NCBI GenBank assembly: GCA_021770065.1
Contig: JAETRR010000001.1
Span: forward strand, 62,001-126,000
Origin: Lachnoclostridium sp.
GTDB taxonomy: Bacteria; Bacillota; Clostridia; Lachnospirales; Lachnospiraceae
Reading direction: 5' to 3'
Length of the DNA stretch: 64,000 bases
Position numbers and translations under genes: made by a program. The notes under the pieces were generated by a model. The model saw only the letters and a list, made by a program, of their open reading frames with translations. It was not told the origin of the DNA and ran no database searches. Shown piece after piece: positions 9,489 to 54,833 of the stretch; the stretch's first letter is position 1; each line of letters begins with the position of its first letter.

Positions 9489-10466
9489 TTAATGCTTCGA
9501 GAGCGCCTGTGCAATCTCATACTGGTAAGGATCGATCCCCTTATCCATAGCCAGAGCCTCATTGATGTCGAAATCCTGGAACCGGCCATGCTGATAGCCC
9601 ACTACCCGGTTTGTCTTGCCCGCACAGAGCAGATCCGCCGCCATAGCACCCATCATGGATGCATACACGCGATCCTTGCAGGTGGGGCTTCCGCCTCTCT
9701 GCATATGACCTAAAATAGTGGCTCTCGTCTCAATTCCTGTAGCCGCCTCAATCCGCCGCGCCATACTGGTAGAATGGCCCACGCCCTCGGCATTTACAAT
9801 AATATGATGCTTCTTGCCGCGCTTCCGGTTGGCAATGATGTTGTTGATAATCTTCTGCTCATCGTAATCGTAATTCTCCGGAATCAGAATATCCTCCGCG
9901 CCGTTGGCAATGCCGCACCAGAGGGCAATATATCCGGCATTCCTTCCCATTACCTCTATAATACTGCAGCGCTCATGGGAGGTGGAGGTATCGCGCACCT
10001 TGTCAATGGCTTCCATGGCCGTATTCACCGCCGTGTCAAAGCCGATGGTATATTCCGTACAGGAAATATCCAGGTCAATGGTACCAGGTACGCCTACTGT
10101 ATTTACCCCAAGATTCGCCAGTGCCTGTGCGCCCTTAAAGGAACCGTCTCCGCCAATGACCACGATCCCGTCAATTCCGTGCTTTTCGCAAATCTCGGCG
10201 CCGCGCTCCTGGCCTTCCTTCGTCATAAATTCTTTGCAGCGGGCTGTAAAAAGGATGGTTCCGCCGCGCTCAATCGTGTTGGATACATCGTTGGCCGTCA
10301 TATCTATGATCTCTTCATTTAAAAGGCCGGAATAACCTTTGCGGATTCCCTTGACTTTCTTTCCATTGGCAAGGGCTTTTCTGACAACCGCACGGATAGC
10401 CGCGTTCATTCCCGGGGCGTCTCCTCCGCTTGTTAATACTCCGATGGTGTTAATCTCTTTTGTCAT
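9489..10466 (-). CDS. pfkA: ATP-dependent 6-phosphofructokinase
   Basis: 325 residues, normal for bacterial PfkA. It begins with the nucleotide-binding GVLTSGGDAPGMNAAIRAVV; GGDGSFKGA carries the Gly typical of ATP rather than pyrophosphate users; the catalytic loop reads GTIDLDISCTEYTIGFDTAV; IEVMGRNAGYIAL binds fructose 6-phosphate. The usual TIDND is TIDLD here, a variant I recall from related Lachnospiraceae; the catalytic Asp is kept. It commits glucose to glycolysis and so drains the glucose 6-phosphate produced by the three PTS/GH1 routes in the window. It lies between dnaE and trmH on the same strand. Confidence 0.95.
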   Translation of the reverse strand: MTKEINTIGVLTSGGDAPGMNAAIRAVVRKALANGKKVKGIRKGYSGLLNEEIIDMTANDVSNTIERGGTILFTARCKEFMTKEGQERGAEICEKHGIDGIVVIGGDGSFKGAQALANLGVNTVGVPGTIDLDISCTEYTIGFDTAVNTAMEAIDKVRDTSTSHERCSIIEVMGRNAGYIALWCGIANGAEDILIPENYDYDEQKIINNIIANRKRGKKHHIIVNAEGVGHSTSMARRIEAATGIETRATILGHMQRGGSPTCKDRVYASMMGAMAADLLCAGKTNRVVGYQHGRFQDFDINEALAMDKGIDPYQYEIAQALSKH

Positions 10467-10547
10467 GCTTTTCTCCCTTCCGGTTCCGTAGTGTCCCGGA
10501 CACTACTGCTTCTATACAATTATCGCATATCAAATCTGTTAATTATT

Positions 10548-14103: not shown

Positions 14104-14130
14104 GTTACTGGTCACGGAGTGAACAGTAAC
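14104..14130. repeat. 27-bp palindromic repeat, copy 1
   Basis: GTTACTGGTCAC-GGAG-TGAACAGTAAC, an imperfect palindrome. The same element recurs at 15375 (inverse orientation) and, slightly diverged, at 48113. This copy contains the last codons and the stop of coaBC. Confidence 0.75.
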
Positions 14131-15325
14131 ATTTTGAGAGCTCGTACCGGAGCGTGTCCAGAATACGGTGGGCCGCCTGCTCCTTTGTCATCAGTTCTAA
14201 CGGGATCTCTTTTTCTCTGGTGAGCAGGGTGATCCGGTTGGTATCTGTACCAAAACCCACACCTTCTTCCCGAAGACTGTTGGCGCAGATGAGATCGCAG
14301 TTTTTAGCTTCCAGTTTCTTTCTGGAATTTTCAAGCAGGTCTTCTGTCTCCATGGCAAAACCGCAGAGAAGCTGGCCTTCTTTTTTATGCTCTCCTAAGT
14401 ATTTCAGGATATCCTTTGTGCGTCTCAGTTCTATGGTTAAATCCTGATCGGATTTCTTCAGCTTATTCGCCGCTGTAACTGCCGGGGTATAATCTGCCAC
14501 CGCCGCCGCCTTGATAATATAGTCCATGGTATCTGCTTCTTTTACTACTGCTTCAAACATATCCTCCGCCGATGCCGCCGGCACAATCCGGACAAACATG
14601 GGAGGTTCCGCTTCCGTATGCGCAGCCACAAGCGTAACGTCCGCTCCCCGCAGCATGGCAGCCCTTGCCAATGCGTAACCCATCTTTCCGCTGGAATGAT
14701 TGGTAATAAATCTTACCGGGTCAATGGATTCTCTGGTAGCTCCTGCGGTAATCAATACTTTTCTGCCTGCCAGATCCTTTTCAAAAGCAATCTCTTTTAA
14801 AATATATTCCAGAAGCACCCGTTCCTCCGGCATTCTTCCGTCCCCCTGGTCGCCATTGGCCAGCATTCCTGTGTCCGGGGGAATGATCTCATAACCGAAA
14901 CGGGACAGCTTGTCAAGGTTGTCCTGGACAATCGGGTTGTGGTACATGTTATGATTCATGGCCGGGGATACCAGTTTTCTGCAGGGACAGGCCATGACGG
15001 TGGTGGTCAGCATATCGTCCGCGATGCCCCCCGCTATTTTTCCGATGACGTCGGCGGAAGCCGGGGCAATCAAGACAAGATCGGCCTGCTTGGCCAGGGC
15101 TACGTGTTCGACGCTGTATTGGAAGTTCCGGTCAAAGGTGTCGATGAGGCATTTTTTTCCGGTCAGGCTTTCGAAGGTGATGGGGTTGATGAAGTTCACG
15201 GCATTTTTTGTCATCAATACCTGGACGCTGCATTCCAGTTTTTTCAGCATTCTGGCCAGGTTTGCGATTTTATAGGCCGCAATGCTGCCGGATACGGCCA
15301 GGATGACTGTTTTTCCTTTTAACAT
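14105..15325 (-). CDS. coaBC: Bifunctional phosphopantothenoylcysteine decarboxylase / phosphopantothenate-cysteine ligase
   Basis: 406 residues. The N-terminal half is the flavin decarboxylase CoaC (VSGSIAAYKIANLARMLKK; PASADVIGKIAGGIADDML; PAMNHNMYHNP with the catalytic motif). The C-terminal half is the ligase CoaB (VLITAGATRESIDPVRFITN, then AAAVADYTP). Together they make 4'-phosphopantetheine for coenzyme A. The last residues (CYCSLRDQ) and the stop are encoded by the 27-bp palindromic repeat, so the natural C-terminus has probably been replaced. It is divergent from panT and coaX, completing a CoA locus. Confidence 0.95.
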   Translation of the reverse strand: MLKGKTVILAVSGSIAAYKIANLARMLKKLECSVQVLMTKNAVNFINPITFESLTGKKCLIDTFDRNFQYSVEHVALAKQADLVLIAPASADVIGKIAGGIADDMLTTTVMACPCRKLVSPAMNHNMYHNPIVQDNLDKLSRFGYEIIPPDTGMLANGDQGDGRMPEERVLLEYILKEIAFEKDLAGRKVLITAGATRESIDPVRFITNHSSGKMGYALARAAMLRGADVTLVAAHTEAEPPMFVRIVPAASAEDMFEAVVKEADTMDYIIKAAAVADYTPAVTAANKLKKSDQDLTIELRRTKDILKYLGEHKKEGQLLCGFAMETEDLLENSRKKLEAKNCDLICANSLREEGVGFGTDTNRITLLTREKEIPLELMTKEQAAHRILDTLRYELSKCYCSLRDQ

Positions 15326-15374
15326 GGGGACTTGCTCCTTTTATGTTCGTGCTGATCACCGGACGGGGCTCCAT

Positions 15375-15401
15375 GTTACTGTTCACTCCGTGACCAGTAA
15401 C
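15375..15401. repeat. 27-bp palindromic repeat, copy 2
   Basis: Same element as at 14104 in inverse orientation, between the coaBC and panT starts. The two copies bracket coaBC. Confidence 0.75.
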
Positions 15402-35567: not shown

Positions 35568-36800
35568 CTACTTCATCGCCGCAGCGGTATGAGCAGCATA
35601 CAAATCCTGAATGGCCGGAATCTGTCCAAGCCCCGCAATCTGTGTATCTACACTGTCAAATTTGCCGGATGACGTAAACAAGCTCTTCCAAGAATCCTCA
35701 TCATCCCCGGCCATATCGTTGTTGGCATGATCACCTGCCACCACCATCAAGGGGCGAAGAACTACTTTCTTGTAACCGGCCTCCGCTACTGCCTCAATTA
35801 CCGCCTCGCAGGCCGTCTCCTCCGGCTCTCCCTCAACGGTTCCAATAAATACATTGTCATAACCAAGCTCACTCATCTGAGTCTGCATCTGGCTGTAGGA
35901 AACTTTGGCCGTATGGGAGGTTCCATGTCCCAGGAACACAAATGCCGCACCGTCCTCTTTTGCCGCATCCAGGCTGTCATAGCCGGCTGTCTTTACGGCT
36001 TCTGCCGTAACCGCCTCTGCCACTGCCTTTTTATCTGCATTGATAGCCGCAGCATCCGTACCGACCTCGCCAAGCAGAGGCTCTGCAACCTTTACGGATT
36101 CAAACTTGTCCTTATAAGCCTCAACGGCCTCCATCAGCTCGTCATACTCTGCACCGTGCATCAGGTGAGTGGGCTGCACTACAAGATTCTTAACCCCATT
36201 GGCTGCTGCACGTTCCAAAGCCTGATCCATATTGTCAATAAACTCATTATCTCTGGCCTGTATATGATTGATAATGATCTGGGCCGTAAACGCCCTTCGA
36301 ACAGACCAGTCTGGATTTGCCGCAATCAGGGCATCCTCAATTCCCTTAATATCCGCCACACGGCTGTCATTAAAGGATGTACCGAAGCTGACCACCAAAA
36401 GCTCGTTCTCTCCAATCTCATCCTGATTAAGGGGATCGTCTTTAGAAGCGTCTCCGGTGTCTCTCCCGAAGTAATCGGGATCCGCTTCCTCGCCCTCTAC
36501 CAGCTCTTTCTGAGCATCCGTAAGTGCATCCCAGGCCGCCTTGGCCGCCGCACACTGGGCATCCGTCTCATCCGTTCTCGTCTGCACATAGATTGCATCA
36601 ATCAAAGCGGCTGCTTCATCCGCCTTGTCCTGATCGGAAGCTTCCTCTTTCGGGGCTTCTGCCTCCTCAGATGTCTCCTCCGGGACTTCTGCTTCCTCTG
36701 CCGGGGCAGATGCCGCCGGCTCCGCTTCCTTGCTGCATCCGCTCAGGCAAAAAACAAGCACCATAAGAGCGGCCAGCATAACTGACATTTTTCTTTTCAT
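35568..36800 (-). CDS. cbiK: Sirohydrochlorin cobaltochelatase CbiK, secreted lipoprotein form
   Basis: 410 residues, over 100 more than cytosolic CbiK. A lipobox (VFCLSGC) puts it outside the membrane. Residues about 25-60 are an Ala/Glu-rich linker and about 60-110 a helical FIVAR-like segment (AAKAAWDALTDAQKELVEGE). The chelatase begins at ELLVVSFGTSFNDSR; metal-binding histidines are in QPTHLMHGAEYDEL and FLGHGTSHTAK. Cytosolic CbiK inserts Co2+ into sirohydrochlorin. An exported copy is known from Desulfovibrio (periplasmic CbiK, heme-binding). First gene of the riboswitch operon. Its RBS lies at the end of a repeat element. Confidence 0.88.
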   Translation of the reverse strand: MKRKMSVMLAALMVLVFCLSGCSKEAEPAASAPAEEAEVPEETSEEAEAPKEEASDQDKADEAAALIDAIYVQTRTDETDAQCAAAKAAWDALTDAQKELVEGEEADPDYFGRDTGDASKDDPLNQDEIGENELLVVSFGTSFNDSRVADIKGIEDALIAANPDWSVRRAFTAQIIINHIQARDNEFIDNMDQALERAAANGVKNLVVQPTHLMHGAEYDELMEAVEAYKDKFESVKVAEPLLGEVGTDAAAINADKKAVAEAVTAEAVKTAGYDSLDAAKEDGAAFVFLGHGTSHTAKVSYSQMQTQMSELGYDNVFIGTVEGEPEETACEAVIEAVAEAGYKKVVLRPLMVVAGDHANNDMAGDDEDSWKSLFTSSGKFDSVDTQIAGLGQIPAIQDLYAAHTAAAMK

Positions 36801-36815
36801 TTTGTTCCTCCTATT

Positions 36816-36953
36816 CCAGTTCCGTAATATCCCTCCCAGTACACCTTAGCCTAAATCAATTTCCAGCCGCAAATGCATGCGTCTGTAAATCGATTTGTGC
36901 ACTGTGAGGGATATTACTGTTTAAATCGCTGCGCGATGGCACTAAAGGGTAAA
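36816..36953 (-). repeat. Leader-associated palindromic repeat, copy A (upstream of cbiK)
   Basis: About 138 bp, nearly identical to 54545-54685 upstream of asnB. GTAATATCCCTC and GAGGGATATTAC close a long imperfect hairpin containing AAATCAATTT and AAATCGATTT. A second small hairpin (ATCGCTGCGCGAT) lies at its upstream end. On the minus strand the sequence ends GGAATAGGAGG, the Shine-Dalgarno of cbiK. Confidence 0.8.
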
Positions 36954-37004
36954 GTCGATGCCAGGCAGCATTAGGGGGCGCCGCAGGCCGTCCCGGTTAA
37001 ATGT

Positions 37005-37034: not shown

Positions 37035-37159
37035 CGGTAAGAGGACGCAATGATGTTGTATCTTTTATGACATCTGCGACCAGTTACTCGTGGCCTCGGG
37101 GCCGGTGTGTCTATCCATCCATCTGTCAAATGCATGGTACACCGAGATTCCTCCCGAAT

Positions 37160-37345
37160 TTTCCGCAGGCAGGTCTCCTGACTTGCAGATCCTCACAGCA
37201 ATGCCGCCTTCCCAATCTCTCAGTGGCTTATCTGGCATCCTGCTCCCTGCTTACAGTGACGAGTTCGCACAGGACTTTCACCTGTTTCCCTTTTCACCAC
37301 GCCGCATCCGGACGGCGTGACACCTGCAGCCCGCTTCCTGCGAAG
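37160..37345 (-). ncRNA. Cobalamin (B12) riboswitch
   Basis: Minus-strand aptamer with all the class landmarks in order: GGGAAACAGGTGAAAGTCC, GCGAACTCGTCACTGTAAGC, GCCACTGAGAGATTGGGAAG, and the B12 box AAGTCAGGAGACCTGCC. It begins about 10 bases after the promoter at 37356-37384 and precedes the cbiK operon. Adenosyl- or other cobalamin binding should switch off the secreted CbiK, the surface proteins and the importer. Confidence 0.96.
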
Positions 37346-43632: not shown

Positions 43633-44949
43633 TTACCAGTCATCATCCTCGTCATTGCCCTTGGCGGCCTCTTCCTCCATTTTCAAGTTCATTTTATCCA
43701 CTCTGCGGATAAATGGCAGATATACGAAGAAAGAAACAATAAAGATTACTATCTGGAGCAATGCGCTTCTCCATCCACCAACCAGGAAACCGGAAATAAT
43801 CGGCGGACAGGTCCACGGCACCTGAATCGCAGTGTAAAGGGGACAGAGTCCCGTTGCCAGAGCAGCATACTGGATCACGCAGGCGATTACCGGCATGGCA
43901 ATAAAGGGAACTGCCAGCATCGGGTTCATAACAATCGGAATACCAAACAAAATCGGCTCATTAATGTTAAACAGTGCCGGTACGGCTTCCAGCCGTCCCA
44001 GAGTTTTCAGCTGTTTGGATTTTGCGAAAGCCACCATATAGATTACAACTCCGATAGTCAGACCGGCGCCGGTTACATTGATAAACTGATCATAAAACTG
44101 CTGGGTCACGATATGTCCGCCATTTGCAACTGTCAGCTCCATTCCGCTGTCAACAATTGCCTGGTTTGCCAGGGAGTTAGCCTGCAGAAGCCCGGACATA
44201 ATGCCGCCAACAATGGTAGAACCGTGAACACCGAACATCCAGAGAAACGGCCCCATAAAGCACATCAGTATTGCTCCTCCCGGAGAATCCGTCATACCCT
44301 GCAGCGGAGTCTGGATAATACGGTAGATAAGCTCCATAGCTGTAGTGTGCAGCCCCATATCACAGATACCATGAATAACCGTTGCCCCTACAACAATGGC
44401 CCCCGCCGGAATCAGTGCGGAAAAGGCATTGGCAACACCTCCCGGTACGCCTGCCGGCATCTTGATACGAATGTTCCTCTTTAAAAACCAACAGTAGACA
44501 AAAGCCACAATCCAGCCGATCAGAATTGCACCAATCATACCCTTTCCGGCTGTCCAGTCCTTATTGATAATATTACCGACCACATCACCGTTTTCCGTCA
44601 CAACTGATGAAGGCTGAAGCAGCAGGAACACGGCCAGGGCAACGATGCCGCCGCTTAAAGGCTCCTGTCCTTCCAGCTTAACATAATTGTAAGCGATACC
44701 GACAACAGCGATCATTGCGCTGATATTGAAGGTAGCTCCATAGGCTTGATTCAATATATCCGTAATTCCGGAATCTGCCAGCGCATTGGACACTGCCGGA
44801 ATCGGGAAATTGGCCAGAATCAGGAAAATGGAACCTACAATCAACAGCGGCATGGAGTATACCATACCATCCTTCAGGGACTGAATTGCCTTGGTATTAA
44901 TAAAGGCCATGATTTTGGGGATAATCTTTTCATTCATATACTTACCCAT
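43633..44949 (-). CDS. PTS cellobiose-type IIC permease
   Basis: 438 residues with about ten membrane helices. Family features: MPLLIVGSIFLILANFPIPA, HGSTIVGGIMSG and FNINEPILFGIPIVMNPMLA, the substrate-binding NEP loop. It imports a beta-disaccharide such as cellobiose, phosphorylating it with IIB. Its ribosome site (AATAGGAGGAGAAAT) directly adjoins the tandem leader repeat. Confidence 0.93.
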   Translation of the reverse strand: MGKYMNEKIIPKIMAFINTKAIQSLKDGMVYSMPLLIVGSIFLILANFPIPAVSNALADSGITDILNQAYGATFNISAMIAVVGIAYNYVKLEGQEPLSGGIVALAVFLLLQPSSVVTENGDVVGNIINKDWTAGKGMIGAILIGWIVAFVYCWFLKRNIRIKMPAGVPGGVANAFSALIPAGAIVVGATVIHGICDMGLHTTAMELIYRIIQTPLQGMTDSPGGAILMCFMGPFLWMFGVHGSTIVGGIMSGLLQANSLANQAIVDSGMELTVANGGHIVTQQFYDQFINVTGAGLTIGVVIYMVAFAKSKQLKTLGRLEAVPALFNINEPILFGIPIVMNPMLAVPFIAMPVIACVIQYAALATGLCPLYTAIQVPWTCPPIISGFLVGGWRSALLQIVIFIVSFFVYLPFIRRVDKMNLKMEEEAAKGNDEDDDW

Positions 44950-44956
44950 ATTTCTC

Positions 44957-45068
44957 CTCCTATTTTAAGTCCCGTAATATCCTGTCAATACACCCCGAAC
45001 GAAATCAATTCCCATCCACAAAAACATGTGTCTGTAAATTGATTTGTGCATTGACAGCATATTACTGT
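44957..45068 (-). repeat. Leader-associated palindromic repeat, copy C (upstream of PTS IIC)
   Basis: About 105-bp unit: CCCGTAATATCCTGTCAATA, AAATCAATT, then AAATTGATTTGTGCATTGAC and ATATTAC. It shares layout and many words with copies A and B and adjoins the IIC Shine-Dalgarno. It is followed by a nearly identical tandem unit. Confidence 0.8.
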
Positions 45069-45205
45069 TTTAAGTCCCGTAATATCCTGTCAATACACTC
45101 TGAACGAAATCAATTCCCATCCACAAAAACATGTGTCTGTAAATTGATTTGTGCATTGACAGCATATTACTGTTTTAAGTTGCTGTATGACAGCACGAAA
45201 GGATA
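45069..45205 (-). repeat. Leader-associated palindromic repeat, copy D (tandem duplicate)
   Basis: Second copy of the 105-bp unit, differing at only about two positions (ACACTCTG against ACACCCCG). It ends with a small hairpin (TTGCTGTATGACAGCA) at the place where copies A and B carry ATCGCTGCGCGAT. Confidence 0.8.
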
Positions 45206-45219
45206 TTTTTACAGCGAAC

Positions 45220-52404: not shown

Positions 52405-52612
52405 GGGCGCTCCGCAGAAGAAGGCCCCGGACTTTTCCATATCCGTGTTCGGACGGTTCACGTACACCCTGTCTGCTCCGTACGTACATTGCTTTGAGAC
52501 GTTTTATAGCGTCAAGGCTTTGAGCAATGTTCGTACGGAGCAGACAGGGTGTGCGCGAGCAGCCGGACACTTGATATCGGAAAAGCCCGGGGCCTTCTTC
52601 TGTGGAGCGCCC
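52405..52612. repeat. 208-bp near-perfect palindrome between pncB and asnB
   Basis: The arms start GGGCGCTCCGCAGAAGAAGG and end CCTTCTTCTGTGGAGCGCCC. Pairing continues through CACCCTGTCTGCTCCGTACG against CGTACGGAGCAGACAGGGTG to a short A/T centre (TTTTATA). Each arm is about 100 bases with few mismatches and some loops. No coding potential is evident. It sits between two convergent genes, so it may act as a bidirectional terminator, a palindromic mobile unit, or a structured RNA. Confidence 0.8.
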
Positions 52613-52682: not shown

Positions 52683-54530
52683 TTATTGTTCGCAGAAGTA
52701 GATCTCGTACCAGATGCAGAAGGTGTAGATGGTCCATAGCTTTCTGCTGTTGTCTTTGTGTTTTTTGAGGTGTTCTTCTAATAGGTCCATTAGTTTTTCC
52801 TGGCGGAAGTAGCGCTGGGCAGCCGGTCCAGTGAAGGCTTTGCGCATGCGGGCCTGGCCTTCTTCTTCGCAGATCCAGTGGCGGATGGGGACGGGGAAGC
52901 CCAGCTTCGGGCGTTCGCTGGTGTCGGTGTCCAGCTTGAAGGCGGCGGCTTTGCGCAGGATGTATTTTGTTATGCGGCCTCTCTGCTTCATGTGGGGCGG
53001 GAGGCGCCGGGATACGGCGAATACCTCACGGTCCAGGAAGGGGACGCGGACCTCCAGGGAATGGGCCATGCTCATGCGGTCGGCTTTTTGGAGGATGTCT
53101 CCAGGAAGCCAGTGGCGCAGATCGATTTCCTGCATGCGGTCGGCATCCCGAAGGCCGAGGGTTCTGTCGTAGTCTTCTTCCAGGAAGCTTTGGGGGCTTC
53201 GGGCTCCGATGTTTTTGCAAAGCAGGGCACGGCGTTCTTCCAGGGTAAAGATGTTGGCGTTGCCGATGAAACGCTCTTCCAGGGTTTTGCTTCCGCGGAT
53301 TAAGAAGTTTTTGCCTTTCAAGTTTGGAAAGTGCCGTGCAAGGCAGGCCAGCCATGTACGCAGTTTTCCGGGCAGCATCTGGTAACGCCGGAGGGCTTCC
53401 GGTTCGCAGTAGATGCGGTAGCCGCCGAAAAGTTCGTCGGCTCCTTCGCCGGACACTACAACTTTGACATCTTTTGCCGCTTCCATGGAGAGAAAGTAGA
53501 GCGCTACTGCGGAGGCATCACCTAAGGGTTCATCCATGTAGTAAAGGACTTCGGGTACGGCCTCCCAGAATTCCTGCTCGCGGATTCTTCTGCCTTTGTG
53601 ATCCAGGCCGCACTGTTCAGCCGTGTTCCGGGCGTACCGGATCTCATTGTAGCGGCTTCCTTCCTGGCCGAAGCCTACAGTATAGGCTTTTTTCCCTCCG
53701 AATTCGGAAGCGATCAGGCCGGAGTCTACGCCGCCCGAAAGGAAGGTTCCGACTTCTACGTCGGCTATTTCGTGAGCCTTTACGGAATCTTTTATCGTCC
53801 GGTCTACGGCTTCTAACCACTCGCTTTCTCCTTTTCCTGTCTCCGGCTGTAAGGAGGGTTCAAAGTATTTCTGAATCTCCAGGATGATGCTTCCGCTTTT
53901 CCAGCGAAGAAAGCTTCCCGGTTCCAGCCGGTAAATACCTTTGAAGAAGGTTTCCTCCAGGGCGGAATACTGAAAGGAGAGAAACTGCTCCAACGCCTGC
54001 TCATTCAGCTCTTTCTGATATCCCGGATACTTGAGTATGCTTTTTATCTCGGAGGCGAAGATGAGGCTTTCGCCTGCTATGGTGTAGTAAAAGGGCTTGA
54101 TTCCGAAATAGTCCCGGGCCGCAAAGAGTTCTTTTTTTTCTTCGTCCCAGATCGCGAAGGCAAACATTCCGCGCAGACGGGAGAGCAGTTCGCTGCCCCA
54201 CTCTTCATAGCCGTGAATCAGAACTTCCGTGTCGGAGCGTGTCTTGAACTGATGTCCGGCTTTTAGCAGCTCCTTTCGAAGCTCCTGATAATTGTAGATC
54301 TCTCCGTTGAATACCAGAACCTTGCTGCCGTTTTCATTTTCCATGGGCTGGGCGCCCGTTTCCAGATCGATGATGCTTAAGCGCCGGAATCCCAGGGCCG
54401 CATCGCCGCTCAGCCAGCTTCCCCCGTCATCGGGACCCCGGTGCCGGATGGCATCCTTCATTTCCTCTAATATCTGTTCTCTATCCCAATTTTCTTTTTT
54501 CTTTCCCACAACTCCGCAGATGCCGCACAT
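52683..54530 (-). CDS. asnB: Asparagine synthetase (glutamine-hydrolysing)
   Basis: 615 residues from ATG 54530 (AGGAGGATATCAT); the mature protein begins at Cys2 (MCGICGVVG), the amidotransferase nucleophile. The glutaminase domain contains IRHRGPDDGGSW and FNGEIYNYQELR; the synthetase domain contains GTFLSGGVDSGLIASEFGG (ATP pyrophosphatase loop) and VVSGEGADELFGGYRIYCEP. It makes asparagine from aspartate, glutamine and ATP. Its leader contains repeat copy B, whose end forms the ribosome site. Confidence 0.95.
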   Translation of the reverse strand: MCGICGVVGKKKENWDREQILEEMKDAIRHRGPDDGGSWLSGDAALGFRRLSIIDLETGAQPMENENGSKVLVFNGEIYNYQELRKELLKAGHQFKTRSDTEVLIHGYEEWGSELLSRLRGMFAFAIWDEEKKELFAARDYFGIKPFYYTIAGESLIFASEIKSILKYPGYQKELNEQALEQFLSFQYSALEETFFKGIYRLEPGSFLRWKSGSIILEIQKYFEPSLQPETGKGESEWLEAVDRTIKDSVKAHEIADVEVGTFLSGGVDSGLIASEFGGKKAYTVGFGQEGSRYNEIRYARNTAEQCGLDHKGRRIREQEFWEAVPEVLYYMDEPLGDASAVALYFLSMEAAKDVKVVVSGEGADELFGGYRIYCEPEALRRYQMLPGKLRTWLACLARHFPNLKGKNFLIRGSKTLEERFIGNANIFTLEERRALLCKNIGARSPQSFLEEDYDRTLGLRDADRMQEIDLRHWLPGDILQKADRMSMAHSLEVRVPFLDREVFAVSRRLPPHMKQRGRITKYILRKAAAFKLDTDTSERPKLGFPVPIRHWICEEEGQARMRKAFTGPAAQRYFRQEKLMDLLEEHLKKHKDNSRKLWTIYTFCIWYEIYFCEQ

Positions 54531-54544
54531 ATGATATCCTCCTA

Positions 54545-54685
54545 TTCCAGTTCCGTAATATCCCTCCCTGTACACCTTAGCCTAAATCAATTTCCAGCCG
54601 CAGATACATGCGCCTGTAAATCGATTTGTGCACTGTGAGGGATATTACTGTTTTAAATCGCTGCGCGATAGCACTAAAGGGTAAA
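54545..54685 (-). repeat. Leader-associated palindromic repeat, copy B (upstream of asnB)
   Basis: About 140 bp, close to identical with 36816-36953: GTAATATCCCTC...GAGGGATATTAC arms, AAATCAATTT/AAATCGATTT inside, and an ATCGCTGCGCGAT hairpin at the far end. On the minus strand it ends GGAATAGGAGG, used as the asnB Shine-Dalgarno. Confidence 0.8.
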
Positions 54686-54833
54686 GCTTCCGCAATACTC
54701 CTCCTGTGCCCCCTGGTCTTTTCTCTTCTTTTTGGTTACCATAATCTTAGCATCGCCTTATTTCGACAAATTTTCCGACTTGTAACAAAATTGTATCCGG
54801 ATGTTAATATTGTTTTTCAATTTACTCCGCCAT

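Follow-up and report, generated by a model that had tools for sequence, protein, structure and literature searches.

Three minus-strand genes of the window (the whole stretch of 64,000 nucleotides that was analysed), encoding a CbiK-type chelatase, a PTS EIIC component and asparagine synthase, are preceded by copies of one repeat, as an earlier, sequence-only reading of this DNA had claimed: a covariance model finds the element, here called A, in all three leaders, and Pfam identifies the genes (Table 1). The count of three leaders was incomplete, as a fourth, miniature copy had been missed in front of the gene at 9489-10466. The unit of about 140 bp described in that reading is repeated but is not a single element; it consists of a hairpin of about 106 nt (A) preceded by the 3' end of a second element, B, which reads CTTTACCCTTTAGTGCYRTCGCGCAGCGAYTT. 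In the sense of the gene, A runs in the three leaders from 5'-CAGTAATAT to ATATTACGGAACTGGAA-3' and is followed by AATAGGAGG-N5-8-ATG; in the pair before the PTS EIIC gene, where the proposed tandem duplication is borne out by two adjoining A units, the tail is ATATTACGGGACTTAAA instead of ATATTACGGAACTGGAA. A cobalamin riboswitch lies upstream of cbiK, its expected target, and hence B and A (36814-36954) sit between the riboswitch and the Shine-Dalgarno (SD) sequence. In the asnB leader the order is old A (a probable remnant), B, A and SD. The 31-nt miniature reads CAG-TAGTGTCC-GGGACACTA-CGGAACCGGAA and stands directly 5' of the GGGAG-N-ATG of its gene; similar A miniatures of 39-40 nt were found in leaders L133, L157 and L187. 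At the gathering score, Rfam returned only the cobalamin riboswitch and tRNA in the window and no family for the element, and at relaxed thresholds it returned nothing above chance for the element.

Table 1. Features of the four leaders and their genes, in window coordinates.
Feature	Leader or gene	Position	Strand	Support or remark
Element A, full-length hairpin	cbiK	36814-36919	-	covariance model 116.3 bits, E 2.7e-23; fold z-score -7.6
Element B 3' end (5'-truncated copy), directly 5' of A	cbiK	36923-36954	-	pattern match
SD AGGAGG, abutted by A	cbiK	36807-36812	-	belongs to the gene, not the element
cbiK-like cobalt chelatase gene, downstream of element	cbiK	35568-36800	-	PF06180 E 5e-71
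Cobalamin riboswitch, further upstream	cbiK	37151-37342	-	RF00174, 105.9 bits
Element A, first (upstream) unit of tandem pair	PTS EIIC	45069-45172	-	86.8 bits, E 7.8e-17
Element A, second (SD-proximal) unit of tandem pair	PTS EIIC	44964-45067	-	86.3 bits, E 1e-16
Element B, degenerate 3' end upstream of the pair	PTS EIIC	about 45175-45208 (approximate limits)	-	66% match to other B ends
SD AGGAGG	PTS EIIC	44956-44961	-	
PTS EIIC gene	PTS EIIC	43633-44949	-	PF02378 E 3e-63
Element A	asnB	54545-54650	-	111.4 bits, E 3.3e-22; fold z-score -6.7
Element B 3' end (5'-truncated copy)	asnB	54655-54686	-	
Probable remnant of older A tail (GGAGTATTGCGGAA)	asnB	54687-54700	-	read from sequence
SD AGGAGG	asnB	54538-54543	-	
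asnB (asparagine synthase) gene	asnB	52683-54530	-	identity by Pfam
Miniature element, 8-bp hairpin, conserved ends CAG and CGGAAC	gene at 9489-10466	10478-10508	-	27 bits, E 9e-4

Elsewhere in the window, perfect 29-bp inverted repeats (14104-14132 and 15373-15401) flank a 406-aa ORF (14105-15325) and may mark an insertion sequence or be a pair of repeats. A 208-nt near-perfect palindrome, whose 34-bp ends are 94% complementary, occupies positions 52405-52612, close to where asnB ends on its 3' side.

Element A is a hairpin of about 105-106 nt that begins with CAG and ends with CGGAAC, usually CGGAACTGGAA; these ends pair with each other only as the foot of the hairpin. In a structure alignment of 67 A units, each less than about 86% alike, six columns (CAG...CGG) are invariant and the outer stem is fully re-sequenced. 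RNAalifold yielded 32 paired columns, and the check for compensatory changes that had been proposed from the sequence alone gave a clear result, with 30 of the 32 covarying (pair kept, both sides changed). Across the consensus pairs, G-U in the sense strand was counted 141 times vs. 16 times for A-C, which corresponds to G-T on the opposite strand; because RNAalifold itself favours G-U, the count was repeated for pairs with at least two Watson-Crick types only (120 vs. 15). In 98% of 198 copies the sense fold was better than the antisense fold (mean difference 8.1 kcal/mol), and the consensus folds at -37.2 kcal/mol in sense vs. -19.4 kcal/mol in antisense. Among 72 close copies from one genome, divergence was 0.068 in stems, 0.236 in internal unpaired positions and 0.031 at the ends, and compensated double changes numbered 56, vs. 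10.6 expected from shuffles. The folding of element A is conserved in the sense (RNA) strand, and both compensatory changes and strand preference, the criteria for structured RNA as a class, are present.

Pairing of this kind could be kept without any dedicated mobility if copies arose by template switching during replication via the shared SD motif, quasi-palindrome correction maintained the arms, and purifying selection left the copies in their present position. This explanation needs no resident enzyme, and it agrees with the SD microhomology at every junction and with tiny duplications such as GAACTGGAATA just before GGAGG (g117; L139, L182). Correction of one arm by the other would, however, erase the asymmetric bulge of about 8 nt on the 3' side that is present in nearly all aligned units, as well as the CGGAA foot present in most, and since both persist, simple arm-to-arm correction is disfavoured as the origin of the pairing. 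Template switching also predicts no excess of G-U over A-C, and does not explain why only these hairpins have spread and most genera carry none. We consider it very unlikely.

Copies of B score weakly under the covariance model of A (27-37 bits). By eye, their plan is like that of A (outer stem, GYGCAC/GTGTRY, one-sided bulge, inner stem); a relationship between the two is no more than suggested, because A itself, read on the reverse strand, scores 20-40 bits under the same model. With respect to translation, the predicted probability that the SD is unpaired was 0.67 with the element vs. 0.51 with shuffled upstream sequence, and was higher with the element in 88 of 109 genes. In the predicted fold the hairpin pairs only with itself, with the SD left unpaired, and insertions are therefore probably well tolerated by the host genes, to which they may even be helpful.

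Among the matches listed, almost all terminal A copies continue into an SD and a start codon, with the distance from SD to start peaking at 5-9 nt; the 3' end of a B copy borders on either an SD and start codon or a further A or B unit of an array. In an unbiased scan, for which sites were not chosen by SD, we searched 1.2 Mb of the sister genome G005 with the bare grammar CAG-stem-loop-stem-CGGRAC and identified 40 matches, vs. 12 in reversed sequence. Twenty-three were located directly before an SD, start codon and ORF, vs. 0 in the control, 5 more were inner units of arrays, and the rest equals background. It follows that practically every real copy is anchored at an SD and oriented in sense, and that the suspicion of a non-random placement at the ribosome site was justified. 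The copies were further checked, as proposed together with that suspicion, for random orientation, lack of covariation and lack of fixed spacing, and showed none of these. Random placement followed by selection alone is disfavoured, because several different inserts share one point in the asnB leader (see below) and the unbiased scan revealed no copies elsewhere.

According to the sequence-only reading, the element not only ends next to the SD, as it does, but also forms it; the SD, however, is not part of the hairpin and varies in type with the gene. A comparison of 30 orthologous leaders between the window's own genome (G000) and G005 showed that a gene whose SD is GGAGA in one species mostly has GGAGA in the other, and likewise for AGGAGG, whether the gene is preceded by A, by B or by nothing; the spacer, like the SD, mostly follows the gene. 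The element thus abuts the SD and does not provide it, and we rejected an element-supplied SD. The genes downstream, both those in the window (CbiK-type chelatase, PTS EIIC, asparagine synthase) and ten sampled ones, which include asparaginase, a trypsin-like protease, a DeoR regulator, an ABC permease, a Clp protein and an ArsC-like protein, have no evident common function.

The sites described individually are large samples, taken from the first hundred matches listed per search. With up to 3 mismatches allowed, 151 sites in the window's own genome (4.14 Mb) match the A 3' end, vs. 0 in the control, and the paired ends GTAATAT...ATATTAC, correctly recognised from the sequence alone, occurred 73 times vs. 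2, which excludes chance; the B end was found at 123 sites vs. 0. Within the genus, A ends per species number 194, 151, 138, 109, 80, 43, 16, at most 1, or 0 (G000, 151; G007, 109; G006, 16). In a sample of Lachnospiraceae, the covariance model produced matches in 8 of 397 genomes, corresponding to 8 of 334 genera, most of them with many copies. In six of the seven other genera, the copies that were read end in CGG(A/G)ACT-N-SD-start or run on as arrays, and the stem sequences in these other carrier genera are quite different. The viral/phage contigs and plasmids searched contained no copies. The distribution supports an amplification of A that is limited to certain lineages.

Comparison of orthologous leaders points to gain, loss and replacement. 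In 15 of the 30 leaders compared between G000 and G005 there is no recognisable element in G005, in 3 there is one of the other family, and in 12 one of the same family. The asnB leader was read in 11 genomes, with promoter-region sequence common to the closer species. Nothing lies between promoter region and SD in G006 and G004. In G000 there are the probable A remnant, a shortened B and a full-length A. A is present in G002 as a copy shortened at its 5' end, and in G005 as a full but diverged copy together with a remnant; the end of B is found in G012 and in G007, and G013 has an unrelated insert. The inserts thus differ among species and occupy the same point between the conserved promoter region and the conserved SD. 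No target-site duplication was seen at asnB or in the G005 comparisons, in which the sequences are too diverged for short duplications. Presence and absence at orthologous genes, lineage-limited amplification and near-exclusive sense placement 5' of the SD make the earlier proposal of a mobile 5'-UTR element well supported. In leaders L204 and L219, by contrast, a true MITE-like palindrome, GGCTGTCGCAGAATCAGCCGGCAGCC, flanked by a 9-bp direct repeat, GGTAGGTTG, is found some 200 nt 5' of an A copy; one genome has it in full and the other in shortened form.

The same data bear on the possibility that the element is a widespread cis-regulatory or mRNA-stabilising RNA, kept by selection, with a trans factor binding the CAG/CGGAAC foot beside the SD. 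Strong covariation, the low divergence of the foot bases (the most conserved, at 0.031), the maintenance of the structure among copies of one genome and the constant spacing from the SD in at least six other genera would all be expected under this explanation. It is at odds with the functional mixture of the downstream genes, with the absence of the element from half of the compared orthologous leaders in the sister species, with copy numbers from 0 to 194 within one genus, and with the frequency of arrays and 5'-shortened copies, and appears to us quite unlikely.

In arrays, the period is 105-107 nt for A and about 117 nt for B, and only the last unit touches the SD. Mixed orders were also found (A-C-B, B-A-A, remnant A-B-A-SD and A-C-B-SD, where C is a third module). 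For stacks such as the last two, the simplest reading is that units arrived one after another at the SD-proximal point; simple tandem duplication may account for arrays of near-identical units. Among copies, the 3' ends are constant and the 5' ends variable. Of 112 terminal copies, 72 match the consensus over at least 100 nt and 40 over 10-99 nt from the 3' end, the latter including some diverged full copies, because the measure is the match to a single consensus. A left half without the right half was present in only one of the copies read (L179). A fixed 3' end with variable 5' truncation is a trait of retroelements, and the pattern resembles 5'-truncated retrotransposition, but at least one case is a later change: at g37, G005 has only the tail, with the same private ACTTTTAATAGGAGGGTTTTACA as the full G000 copy, which indicates that this copy was shortened, or grew, in place.

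On balance, we regard it as fairly probable that these repeats form a family of small mobile RNA-structured 5'-UTR elements anchored at SDs. New copies would enter by an SD-anchored event in which the 3' end of the unit is joined just upstream of GGAGG or GGAGA on the coding strand. Such SD-proximal joining would place later arrivals nearest the SD and could leave the 5' end incomplete. The moving machinery would recognise RNA, or a sense single-stranded copy, of the hairpin, and the self-contained hairpin would render insertion at the SD harmless to translation. More tentatively, the element might move at the RNA level by docking at the SD, with a structured leader copied before another gene's SD, such that 5'-UTRs propagate; the SD of the leader transcript would then pair with, or be joined at, that of the other gene.

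No driver was found among the enzymes searched for. Movement by a reverse transcriptase would agree with the structure of the sense strand and with the 5' truncation, but RVT_1 was not found in G000 (92% complete) or G006 (83% complete), leaving a reverse transcriptase as driver unsupported in the window's own genome. Y1_Tnp is absent from G007, with its 109 A ends, and from G006, with 16, and the one copy in G000 has an in-frame stop, as do the only copies in G005. Y1 genes are present in 5 of the 7 carrier species and also in three species with no or one element match; Y1 presence thus does not track copy number, and we rejected Y1/RAYT as driver. An integron attC origin was dropped, given that the ends, inspected by eye, are without RYYYAAC/GTTRRRY cores.

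These searches weigh on the reading of the element as a conventional REP/MITE-type palindrome that a Y1 or DDE transposase mobilises in trans as DNA, the SD motif (CCTCC on the opposite strand) being its preferred target. Hairpin units, high copy number, arrays and a fixed join to a short motif are typical of Y1 targeting, and five of the seven carrier species do encode Y1. Against this stand the genomes without Y1_Tnp (G007 and G006) and the broken copy in G000, together with the many copies that lack one end and the absence of visible target duplications in the compared, diverged leaders. In addition, with CCTCC as target the element would lie on the antisense strand, whose fold is the poorer one in 98% of copies. 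Movement by a transposase is therefore unlikely in our estimation.

The usual view of small palindromic repeats in bacteria is that they are intergenic passengers whose position bears no fixed relation to genes. REP/REPIN sequences with RAYT (Y1) are short palindromes that spread in trans, form arrays and reach high copy number, features which A has in common with them; REPs occur in either orientation and often 3' of genes, whereas A is sense-only and SD-adjacent, and Y1 is absent from its carriers G007 (high-copy) and G006 and broken in G000 and G005. Among other systems, BOX of Streptococcus pneumoniae comprises modular short repeats with tandem hairpin units, transcribed and strain-variable, in many intergenic copies, and is similar to A and B in its modular repeats, tandem hairpin units and many intergenic copies; it differs in its boxA/boxC ends, its link to an IS by terminal repeats and an orientation and distance to genes that are not fixed at the SD (PMC3049150). 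Compared by description, A invariably has its 3' end next to the SD, stands in sense and keeps its structure in the RNA strand; set against the boxA-boxB(n)-boxC order, there are A arrays, B arrays and mixed orders, but no fixed A/C-type ends. The TAACTGA direct repeats of Beggiatoaceae, of which over a hundred sets lie in forward orientation just upstream of the start codons of unrelated genes, share this orientation and placement with A, but are heptamer tandems without a hairpin that overlap and usually replace the SD (PMC4679880), whereas A is a covarying hairpin of about 105 nt before an intact SD. MRSC-65-2 and other mobile or repeat structured motifs, considered selfish candidates, have a single long stem with strong covariation and dozens of copies per genome, much like A; compared by description, inconsistent gene orientation is taken in that study as their mark (PMC11109978), whereas orientation and position of A are fixed.

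None of BOX, the TAACTGA repeats and MRSC-65-2, compared by description, combines the features seen here, and no description of this element was found in the open-licence literature. We know of no repeat family that is always in gene sense, ends at the ribosome site and keeps its folding in the RNA strand. We place the element among the small interspersed palindromic repeats, as a variety new to that group, and see a modest chance that it is a new kind of mobile element acting at the RNA level. One such family has placed more than 100 genes of a single genome behind the same structured leader, in RNA sense and touching the ribosome-binding site, and its matches span at least eight genera of one family. 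If it moves as we infer, it would offer a route for wholesale swapping of 5'-UTRs between genes, of which to our knowledge there is no prior description, and a source of new translational control. The copy in the cbiK leader, with a cobalamin riboswitch on one side and the SD on the other, makes the element relevant to annotation and to studies of riboswitches.

Module C (TCCAGCTAAGAAATGTCAAG...TTTTTGCTGGA) recurs between A and B in L171, L131, L217 and L304, in the last of which it lies just upstream of a B copy. In L160, at about position 2569 on the minus strand, the 3' end of an A unit is followed by TGTTTTAACAGCAGTACCC, the start of another A unit, and the inner joint keeps only GGAACTGGAAT.
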